Assembly: GCA_944322585.1 (NCBI GenBank)
Contig: CALUPB010000005.1
Span: 1-64,000 of the forward strand
Reading direction: 5' to 3'
Source of the DNA: an uncultured Bacteroidales bacterium
GTDB taxonomy: Bacteria; Bacteroidota; Bacteroidia; Bacteroidales; UBA932
Length of the DNA stretch: 64,000 bases
The position numbers and the translations under genes were made by a program. This document shows, one piece after another, positions 61,986 through 64,000 of this stretch. Below the pieces are notes generated by a model. That model was not told where the DNA came from and searched no databases. It saw only the letters and a list, made by a program, of their open reading frames with translations. Every line of letters starts with the position of its first letter. The stretch's first letter is position 1.

Positions 61986-62384
61986 TTATCGCAGCTGAAA
62001 AACACATGGGAATGTATATGTAACTTTTACCGGCCTTCCGTCCAGTATTCCAGGCGTCCATTTCGGAGAACTTGATACGACCCGTACAGCCTCCTGGTCA
62101 AGGGATGGGTCTACACCACTGAGAACACTTACATCAGAAACAGACCCATCAGCGTTTATAGTGAACTTCAGGATTACACGTCCATGTACAGCGTTCTCTT
62201 TGGCGAGTTCAGGATATACGAGTCTTTGATTTACCCAAACGGCAAAAGCATTGGCGTCGCCTCCCATAAATGAAGGGTTTGCATCTAATACTACGGTTTT
62301 AGTTTGATTTTTAGTATAGCATACAAATTCATAGTCTGAAAACTTGATATTTATAGTCCCGCTATAATTTATAACATATTCCAA
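61986..62384 (-). CDS. Orphan TonB C-terminal domain protein
   Basis: 132 aa. Residues about 45-130 are a TonB C-terminal domain (NQRLVYPELAKENAVHGRVILKFTINADGSV to ALDGRPVKVTYTFPCVF-type ending). There is no N-terminal membrane anchor, proline-rich linker or signal peptide. The first 40 residues are AT-rich coding and look unrelated. It may be a truncated gene, possibly affected by the repeat array upstream. Confidence 0.6.
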   Translation of the reverse strand: MEYVINYSGTINIKFSDYEFVCYTKNQTKTVVLDANPSFMGGDANAFAVWVNQRLVYPELAKENAVHGRVILKFTINADGSVSDVSVLSGVDPSLDQEAVRVVSSSPKWTPGILDGRPVKVTYTFPCVFQLR

Positions 62385-62935
62385 TGTATTAAAATTACCG
62401 TTTGAATTAATTATCCGTCAAAATATCCGAAGCTCATTTACCATGTTTCCACAGACAGGAAGTATGAATGTTCATGCTTACTGACATACTGTGTGAACAG
62501 TGACACACCTGGGAATTGATCCGTTGTACAATTCATTGAATTAGAGTAAATTATGTTCTATTCTGAATTCCAGGTGTAACATATCTGTGCACACCTGGAA
62601 CTGCCGATGTGCCTTTGGCTGCCGTAGGAGAGCGATTCTCTCTTCCAGGTGTGCCGGAAACTGTTACACCTGGAAGAGACGAAACCATGTAAACATATGT
62701 CCCATATGTGATTATGCGTATTGCCCAATTCCAGGTGTGCACAGGACAGTTTTTCAGTGCCAATTAGAAGCCGTGTCGCAAAACAGCTTTATATCCGACG
62801 TCATGACCCATATCCCCGTCAGAGGTAGGTATCCGTCCGGATATGCATGGCCTTGAATAGATTGGCACATTGTCCATTTTCAGAACGGAATGCCAGTCCA
62901 TTTCTGCAAGATTTCACAGGTCAGGCATACCAATC
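62385..62935. other. 551-bp gene-free stretch containing the inverted-repeat array
   Basis: No ORF supported on either strand. The left 115 bp is AT-rich upstream sequence of the TonB-domain gene. The middle 240 bp is the alternating repeat array. The right 190 bp, to the MATE stop, shows nothing recognisable. Confidence 0.6.
62505..62744. repeat. Array of six alternating ACACCTGGAA half-sites
   Basis: Copies: forward 62505-62514 (one mismatch), reverse 62568-62577, forward 62591-62600, reverse 62643-62652, forward 62666-62675, reverse 62729-62738. They bound three segments of 73, 62 and 73 bp, separated by 13-bp spacers each time. Same-orientation copies are 86, 75, 75 and 86 bp apart, so the array is symmetric about its centre. 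Copies 3 and 6 match over 16 bp in inverted orientation (62585-62600 and 62729-62744). Copies 4 and 5 match over 13 bp (62640-62652 and 62666-62678). Copies 2 and 5 match over 14 bp. The segments between are unrelated. Confidence 0.85.
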
Positions 62936-64000
62936 TTATAGAGGGGATTTTGCGGATACAGATTCTTTCCAGACAGTTTGTTGACGGGTTCTGAAATAAT
63001 ATACGGTTCCGACGAGGTCGGCGAGAGTCCAGCCGATCGGGATGGACCACCATATGCCGAGCTCCCCGATGCCGGCTATCGGAGCAAGGGCGAATGACAG
63101 GGCTACCCTTGTCCCGAGGGAAAGGACAGTCAGAATGACCGACATGCCCGGGCGGCAGATTGCCCTGTAATAGCCGTAAAGCATGAAAAGAAGGCCTATG
63201 CCTATATAGAAAGCGCCTTCTATGCGAAGGTATTCTTTTCCTATCCGTATTATCTCCGTCTCGGCTTCGCTGACGAAAATCCTCATCAGAGGGTCGGCAC
63301 AGATGAAGACTATGGCTGATATGGCGACAGAGAATGCGGCCATGATGCAGACAGCCCGGATGATACCCTTACGTATCCTTTCATGTCTGTCGGCTCCGTA
63401 GTTCTGGGCCACGAATGTCGAGAAGGCATTGCCGAATTCCTGGACCGGCATATATGCAAACGAGTCTATCTTCACCGCCGCCGCAAATGCTGCCATGACG
63501 GCTGTGCCGAAACTGTTGACGAGTCCCTGCACGGCCAGTATGCCGAGATTCATCACTGACTGCTGGATACAGGTGAGGGAGGAAAACGTTCCTATGTATT
63601 TCAGTACTTTCCAGTCTGGCCTCCAGTATTGCCGTCCCGGCCTGAATTCGGGCCTTGTGACTAGAACCTGTATGCAGAGTCCTATACCGGAAACAGCCTG
63701 TGATATGACAGTGGCGGCAGCTGCACCCTGTATTCCCCAGCCGAAGGAAAGGATGAAAAGAAGGTCAAGCCCGATGTTGAGCAGAGCCGCTCCTGCAAGC
63801 CATAGCAGGGGAGTGACGGAGTCGCCCACGGCGCGGAGCAGGGCAGCAGAATAGTTGTAGAGGAACGTGAATCCGATGCCCCAGTAGATGATCCACAGAT
63901 AGTCTTCCATGAGGGGCTGGACGTCAGCCGGAACCTGAAGCCACCGGAGGATCGGGCCGAGTGTGCTGAAAGCCAAGATTACGAGCAGGACGGTGACGCC
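62936..64000 (-). CDS. MATE-family efflux transporter, 5' end beyond the window
   Basis: At least 354 residues, stop at 62936-62938; the frame stays open to 64000. Hydrophobic helices with MATE-like signatures (GIGFTFLYNYSAALLRAVGDSVTPLLWLAGAALLNIGLDLLF and AFAAAVKIDSFAYMPVQEFGNAFSTFVAQNYGA). The C-terminal charged tail (TRQQTVWKESVSAKSPL) is complete. A second MATE gene is at 55511; the two are not close copies. Confidence 0.9.
   Translation of the reverse strand, partial: GVTVLLVILAFSTLGPILRWLQVPADVQPLMEDYLWIIYWGIGFTFLYNYSAALLRAVGDSVTPLLWLAGAALLNIGLDLLFILSFGWGIQGAAAATVISQAVSGIGLCIQVLVTRPEFRPGRQYWRPDWKVLKYIGTFSSLTCIQQSVMNLGILAVQGLVNSFGTAVMAAFAAAVKIDSFAYMPVQEFGNAFSTFVAQNYGADRHERIRKGIIRAVCIMAAFSVAISAIVFICADPLMRIFVSEAETEIIRIGKEYLRIEGAFYIGIGLLFMLYGYYRAICRPGMSVILTVLSLGTRVALSFALAPIAGIGELGIWWSIPIGWTLADLVGTVYYFRTRQQTVWKESVSAKSPL

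Follow-up and report, generated by a model that had tools for sequence, protein, structure and literature searches.

An array of six alternating half-sites in a Bacteroidales genome is one copy of a dispersed 234-bp element that probably belongs to a RAYT-like transposase

What kind of element is built from six short half-sites that alternate strictly in orientation and bound three segments? Such an array lies between open reading frames (ORFs) in the window analysed here, a stretch of 64,000 nucleotides from an uncultured Bacteroidales bacterium. An earlier interpretation made from the letters alone (the sequence-only reading) proposed a small site-specific recombination array (mini-shufflon), a chain of protein sites, a non-autonomous repeat family or a three-hairpin RNA. 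Here we find that the array is one copy of a dispersed 234-bp element. We consider it likely that this copy is a non-autonomous, REPIN/BIME-like repeat belonging to a RAYT-like Y1 (HUH) transposase. Transposases of the RAYT class, which act on single strands, are widespread and seem to have been domesticated.

A scan of the window located five half-sites that are exactly ACACCTGGAA and a first half-site, ACACCTGGGA, that carries one mismatch; the positions and alternation proposed in the sequence-only reading are therefore correct, its six copies being five exact ones and one with a mismatch. The measured coordinates reproduce the proposed segments of 73, 62 and 73 bp, the 13-bp gaps and the spacings of 86, 75, 75 and 86 bp. 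With up to one mismatch allowed, the window contains 12 half-site matches, six of which make up the array; 100 shuffles averaged 3.67 matches and all stayed below 12. The element follows the pattern ACACCT-N61-AGGTGT-N13-ACACCT-N50-AGGTGT-N13-ACACCT-N61-AGGTGT and comprises the following parts, given in window coordinates together with the longer shared context.

62505..62738, unstranded: six-half-site element, 234 bp (six-site pattern matched at 0 mismatches; family alignment)
62505..62514, plus strand: half-site 1, ACACCTGGGA, one mismatch (window scan)
62515..62567, unstranded: outer segment 1, 53 bp (mirrored conserved positions across the family)
62568..62577, minus strand: half-site 2 (window scan)
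62568..62600, unstranded: junction block J1, half-sites 2 and 3 plus the 13 bp between them (single-stranded DNA (ssDNA) hairpin, z -5.52; 1.07 bits in the loop across 47 copies)
62591..62600, plus strand: half-site 3 (window scan)
62601..62642, unstranded: central segment, bounded by half-sites 3 and 4 in opposite orientation (inverted in some copies at other loci, not in the window copy)
62643..62652, minus strand: half-site 4 (window scan)
62643..62675, unstranded: junction block J2, half-sites 4 and 5 plus the 13 bp between them (ssDNA fold, z -3.83; 1.17 bits in the loop across 47 copies)
62666..62675, plus strand: half-site 5 (window scan)
62676..62728, unstranded: outer segment 3, 53 bp, which mirrors segment 1 (mirrored conserved positions across the family)
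62729..62738, minus strand: half-site 6 (window scan)
62442..62958, unstranded: longer context common to copies C2a, C2b, C3a and C10 of the same genome (C2b 248232-248722 versus window 62958-62442, 78%)

Pairing in the window copy extends beyond the sites themselves: half-sites 4 and 5 pair over 14 bp (100%) and half-sites 3 and 6 over 19 bp (95%), lengths that match or exceed those claimed previously, and the block of sites 2 and 3 pairs with the block of sites 4 and 5 over 33 bp (82%). The ORF at window positions 61986-62384 (minus strand) encodes a TonB C-terminal domain alone (PF03544), and its absent N-terminal part is on the side of the repeat.

The own genome of the window spans 2.87 Mb in 33 contigs and contains exact ACACCTGGAA 50 times, on both strands. 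As 42 of these 50 occurrences fall in arrays or array remnants of the six-site family, the half-site is not a common repeat with random spacing. Seven full copies are present in this genome: the window copy, C2:82596, C2:248426, C3:64189, C3:69011, C3:70442 and C15:3709 (contig and position). Five have exact spacing, and segment 1 lacks 1 bp in C3:69011 and C3:70442; four reduced copies are found on C10, C24, C26 and C4. Twelve copies from four species, found without a spacing requirement (10 with exact spacing, 2 off by 1 bp), align nearly gap-free over 251 columns. A search of 400 genomes of the genus with the six-site pattern (36 letters, up to 3 mismatches, exact spacing imposed on every copy) returned 47 copies in 7 genomes, and the reversed control returned 0 in every genome. 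These copies are distributed as 13 in genome G250, 10 in G228, 7 in G568, 6 in G561, 5 in G265, 1 in G271 and 5 in G000, which is the window's own genome and whose two 1-bp-shorter copies fall outside this count. CRISPR arrays, iterons and chance were considered and ruled out on the basis of this recurrence at exact spacing with no reversed-control match; for CRISPR and iterons, the sequence-only reading had come to the same view.

Among 199 genomes of the family, the exact junction block TTCCAGGTGT-N13-ACACCTGGAA was found in the window's own genome only, and one outside record, a metagenome-assembled ‘uncultured Bacteroidales bacterium’, contains a related arrangement. No plasmid matched the element (blastn ‘distant’), and viral contigs contained no exact match of a two-unit pattern. 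The gene arrangement was classed by ORF heuristics at 37 of the 47 copies: 11 convergent, 7 divergent, and 13 and 6 in the two co-oriented arrangements. None of the 47 copies has an open frame across the whole tested stretch, the longest being 417 nt (ORFs rather than gene annotation).

Information over the 47 copies is highest in the site cores (1.6–2.0 bits) and junction loops (1.07 and 1.17 bits), lower in the three segments (0.69, 0.84 and 0.64 bits) and lowest outside the element (0.29 and 0.17 bits). The junction block, which the sequence-only reading had put forward as the possible unit of a chain of protein sites, is the best conserved part and may be bound by a protein, either the RAYT or another. 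Complementarity about the mirror axis (0.54) is the highest of all axes tested, the next being 0.47 and 0.45. With the sites excluded, the left half matches the reverse complement of the right half at 0.446 within a copy and 0.452 between copies; the mirror symmetry is thus a property of the family and not a matching of the two halves within each copy. The cassettes had been described as unrelated, which is how they look in the window copy but not in the family, in which mirrored conserved positions are kept across the 47 copies.

In the window's own genome, a 291-aa Y1 transposase ORF is located on contig C3 between two full copies, at distances of 179 bp and 142 bp; these are the two copies with the 1-bp-shorter segment 1. 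Relatives of this RAYT occur in 339 of the 400 genus genomes, and the closest are those of G568 (61%), G228 (58%) and G561 (58%), followed by a next best of 39–40%. In G228 and G561 the RAYT gene is enclosed by two full six-site copies; in G568 the 3' copy is full and the 5' copy is truncated to a 32-bp match with site 1. In G000, G228, G561 and G568, the copies that flank the gene are direct repeats, each copy itself being quasi-palindromic. Dispersed copies and an adjoining RAYT-like transposase gene in four genomes support the non-autonomous repeat family that was among the original proposals. A repeat common to both sides of the gene was detected at 18 of the 28 RAYT loci (out of 39) that entered the test, with the best match direct at 15 and inverted at 3, compared with 1 of 62 pseudo-gene positions in the window. 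Half-site letters vary between RAYT lineages, a pattern that would fit co-evolving RAYT specificity. G250 and G265 yielded nothing closer to this RAYT than a 32% match (13 and 5 copies; genome completeness 91% and 96%, respectively), and G271 yielded no relative of it (1 copy; 77% complete).

The AlphaFold2 model of the 291-aa RAYT has a mean pLDDT of 86.9 and a pTM of 0.83. A Foldseek search with this model returned 4er8, a RAYT bound to a REP hairpin, as the best match (E 7.1e-4, TM 0.52 by target), and matches 1–29 were Y1 transposases throughout. A profile of 27 RAYTs searched against PDB sequences also had 4er8 as its best match (E 0.0022; the first row of that alignment was shifted by one codon and included the stop), and a single-sequence PDB search with the RAYT gave nothing relevant. 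Residues H51, H53 and Y110 are invariant in the alignment of 27 RAYTs, and the proteins of the clade, 288–305 aa in length, contain NHVH and the tyrosine motif YVYRNP/YVYKNP. Scores against existing families were 21.8 for Pfam Y1_Tnp (cut-off 23; 23.6 in the genome search) and 31 for NCBIfam REP_Tyr_transpos (cut-off 80). The dN/dS of the G228/G561 pair is 0.13, and dS is saturated in every other pair.

PMC3116915, PMC2817692 and PMC8266576 describe REPINs and BIMEs as alternating short inverted sites with regular spacing, a palindromic whole and a fixed-length, poorly conserved spacer, occurring in dispersed copies and around a Y1 HUH gene. The six-site element shares all of these features. 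It further resembles REP/RAYT systems in that the HUH motif and catalytic tyrosine are kept (27 of 27) and in that the gene is flanked by cognate repeats, on both sides in G000, G228 and G561 and by one full and one truncated copy in G568. However, six half-sites form one 234-bp unit, whereas a REPIN has two REPs, and inverted centres and unit losses among the copies set the element apart from REPINs and BIMEs. Three classical features of REPs are absent. A GT[AG]G foot was found beside site 1 in 3 of 47 copies, at the other five sites in 0 of 47 and on the cassette side in none. REPs are around 20–50 nt long and often present in hundreds of copies, compared with 234 bp and 1–13 exact-spacing copies per genome here; and the gene-flanking repeats of REP/RAYT systems are inverted (Nunvar 2010), whereas six-site copies flank the gene directly. 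The element is therefore filed as a variant of the RAYT-linked kind of repeat that works like a REPIN/BIME, and not as a REP proper.

PMC6006769 reports that Bacteroidetes RAYTs adjoin atypical structures found by eye, and that TnpA_REP subclass 2.6 (Bertels group 5), mostly from Bacteroidetes, has atypical flanking structures without GT[AG]G and with copies elsewhere. The six-site family resembles this subclass in its atypical flanking structures without GT[AG]G and further copies in the genome, and NHVH fits NH[LIV]H; compared by description only, the subclass has a median of 179 aa and YIH[QN]NP, whereas the present clade has about 290 aa and YVYRNP/YVYKNP. TIRtrons (TIRYT), according to PMC3733652, carry a Y1 gene between long terminal inverted repeats that are unrelated to GTAG REPs. 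They share with the present loci a Y1 gene flanked by long non-GTAG repeats, and differ in that the flanking six-site copies are direct and each internally palindromic. The open-licence literature searched contained no description of the six-site element. The family provides a defined, alignable RAYT–repeat example, with one clade, a near-fixed unit length, alleles with and without the RAYT, and natural deletions and flips; it makes RAYT recognition of non-GTAG repeats, and the rearranging as well as the moving of repeats, directly testable.

In the reading that we favour, the 234-bp unit (around 238 bp with its GC ends) is a quasi-palindrome of two inverted halves around a centre, and each half combines a junction block and a 53-bp arm with an outer half-site. 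When the unit became single-stranded, for example at a replication fork, inverted half-sites would pair; the RAYT encoded by the copy-flanked gene would recognize the sites, bind the hairpins, nick by its tyrosine and move or copy the unit. We infer from sequence that the RAYT probably moves the element, and it may be the RAYT, rather than replication or repair, that makes the deletions and flips. Whole units would be lost between same-orientation half-sites and the centre would flip between inverted half-sites 3 and 4, because any half-site could pair or recombine with any other.

All five mapped joints of unit deletions lie between same-orientation half-sites (C10 q344/q430; C24 q206/q367; C26 q269/q430; C4 q206/q292 and q344/q430). 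The centre is inverted between some copies, so orientation is not the same in every relative. The clear case is copy L226 of G250, the centre of which is inverted relative to several relatives; compared with L221, its centre scores 0.48 direct and 0.93 inverted, its outer arms 0.85 direct and 0.49 swapped, and its junctions 0.96 versus 0.50. Copies L247 and L242 have weaker centre inversions (outer arms 0.54–0.58 direct versus 0.41–0.44 swapped; junctions 0.73–0.92 direct versus 0.42–0.58). The orthologous pair L227 (G250) and L240 (G228), with a left flank identical at 287 of 299 positions, shows a partial inner flip of around 26 bp that raises the matches from 180 to 192 of 234. In a block-flip scan, 21 of 313 pairs gained at least 12 matches. 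One of these gains was centred on segment 3 and the other 20 on the mirror axis, 17 of the 20 ending at 85/86 and 149/150; the 20 axis-centred pairs represent a few lineages (L226, L247, L242 and L227/L240) and not 20 events. Outer segments give few signs of flipping: the inverted comparison was better by at least 0.15 in 1 of 544 pairs for segment 3 and 5 of 511 for segment 1. By position-weight scoring, the centre and the outer arms disagreed in orientation in 25 of 47 copies; pairwise tests are preferred, as these scores are mostly small and the centre is nearly palindromic. The inversion breakpoints are placed to within the arms and no finer. For J2, 34 of 306 pairs score better inverted. 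The J2 loop of L224 and L236 seems inverted relative to other copies (23% direct and 85% inverted against some).

For these rearrangements, we give roughly even odds to an account in which the deletions and flips arose at short repeats through slippage, gene conversion or template switching by DNA polymerase, the RAYT was uninvolved and the array is a fossil repeat that replication goes on rearranging; this account competes with the rearrangement part of the favoured reading only. Spacers are known to become inverted by template switching at inverted repeats, and switching between short inverted repeats is reported both to homogenize arms and to invert spacers (PMC8604942). Arms of 10–14 bp are present in the array; columns 104 and 147 (site 3 versus site 4) are complementary in 47 of 47 copies (G-C in 42, A-T in 5), as arm homogenization predicts; and the flip of L227/L240, confined to around 26 bp of the inner part, is what switching at a hairpin tip might give. 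However, the inverted centre is at least 42 bp, compared with spacers of 2–5 bp in the yeast genes treated in PMC8604942, and template switching leaves the dispersal, the near-fixed 234-bp layout and the adjoining gene unexplained. Gene conversion between oppositely aligned copies is another known alternative for the flips. That the RAYT of this clade remodels its own element, excising units and inverting the centre through paired ssDNA half-sites, seems rather unlikely to us; if true, it would constitute an HUH-driven invertible, modular DNA element, a kind of rearrangement undescribed for tyrosine- or serine-recombinase arrays. A shufflon consists of inverted recombination sites that bound coding cassettes, served by a dedicated recombinase. 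It is very doubtful that the present array is of this type, with switchable cassettes under a dedicated tyrosine or serine site-specific recombinase, even though its inverted sites bound segments in strict alternation, its central segment occurs in both orientations (clearly in L226, more weakly in L247 and L242, and as a partial flip in L227/L240) and deletions fall between direct sites. In four genomes the arrays adjoin a gene for a Y1 HUH transposase, the cassettes are non-coding and 42–53 bp in length, the outer segments show little flipping, and a non-systematic reading of the loci noticed no recombinase gene. The mini-shufflon proposed earlier finds partial support in the deletions and centre inversions, and none for a dedicated recombinase.

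Two other alternatives concern the nature of the unit, and the first turns on its ends. It is unlikely that the array is the interior core of a MITE of another transposase, with a mobile unit of around 535 bp bounded by TIR-like ends (TTATCCGCAA...), although C2a, C2b, C3a, C10 and the window have 300–530 bp in common, similar inverted ends are seen by eye around the longer segment, and the flanks of the G228 copies L238 and L239 agree over 81 and 108 bp. The longer context is missing from the copies around the RAYT gene and from that on C15; in G561, the copies on either side of the gene match at 99% within the unit and not beyond it, their flanks having no detectable similarity; and information over the 47 copies drops from 0.6–2 bits inside to 0.17–0.29 bits outside the terminal half-sites. 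Target-site duplications, which would mark a MITE of a DDE transposase, do not exceed those of shuffled partners (at least 4 bp in 4 of 47 copies versus a mean of 2.9 and a maximum of 7), and an exact 3-bp duplication at offset 0 occurs in 0 of 47. The second alternative, a structured RNA or transcription terminator with three hairpins, we regard as extremely improbable. The RNA of both strands does fold far better than shuffles (z -7.45 and -6.86), as does the ssDNA of the window copy (z -8.27), but strong ssDNA or RNA folding is expected of any such inverted repeat array. Rfam has no family in the element (one weak, unrelated match lies elsewhere), copies occur in all four gene arrangements, and co-variation beyond column composition is at background over 47 copies (z -0.95 for the mirror axis; the J45 block ranks 628 of 27025), so that the three-hairpin RNA of the sequence-only reading finds no backing. 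The 12-copy alignment had hinted at co-variation for half-sites 4/5 and 3/4, and not for 2/3, 1/2, 5/6 or 1/6; this candidate for a paired structure was dropped, the hint having gone at 47 copies.

No clean empty site was found for any copy in the genome search. The single copy on G250:C25 has a left flank like that of the 3' copy and a right flank like that of the 5' copy of G561/G228, and no RAYT match was found in the 1.6 kb read at this locus. This flank pattern implies that the RAYT plus one copy is a present/absent segment between direct copies, and either gain or loss of that segment is possible. The homology between G250:C28 (L227) and G228:C17 (L240) consists of the left flank and the element and ends 5 bp past the right end of the element, as if a rearrangement had joined there.

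Several other repeats were noticed. A second family forms 73-bp tandem arrays with junctions CCAGGTCTG-N11-CAGACCTGG in G000 (loci L020-L028), several of them at contig ends (C15:4001-4491; C26:1-341; C12:1-396; C23:40980-41233; C31:3571-4002; C5:160233-160435; C1:265870-266085); the C26 array is fused to a six-site copy. Locus L078 (G000:C2:1-2600) has a second RAYT-like ORF of 339 aa with a 73-bp-family array directly 3' at the contig start and another around 1.3 kb away, beyond another ORF. TIR-like ends (TTATCCGCAA...ACCC), read by eye around the longer shared segment and other short repeats (window 62405-62966; L018 2785-3325 and 3360-3500; L027 290-480), suggest a separate MITE-like family. 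One six-site copy lies between two copies, 93% identical, of an 879-bp segment that contains a gene whose product, judged by eye, is AraC-like (L018 1640-2520 and 3420-4300, equivalent to G000:C3:62844-63722 and 64621-65499). In another species (L095, G215:C4), a RAYT-like gene is followed at 2321-2450 by a 52-bp tandem repeat with CCAGGT/ACCTGG half-sites 23 bp apart.
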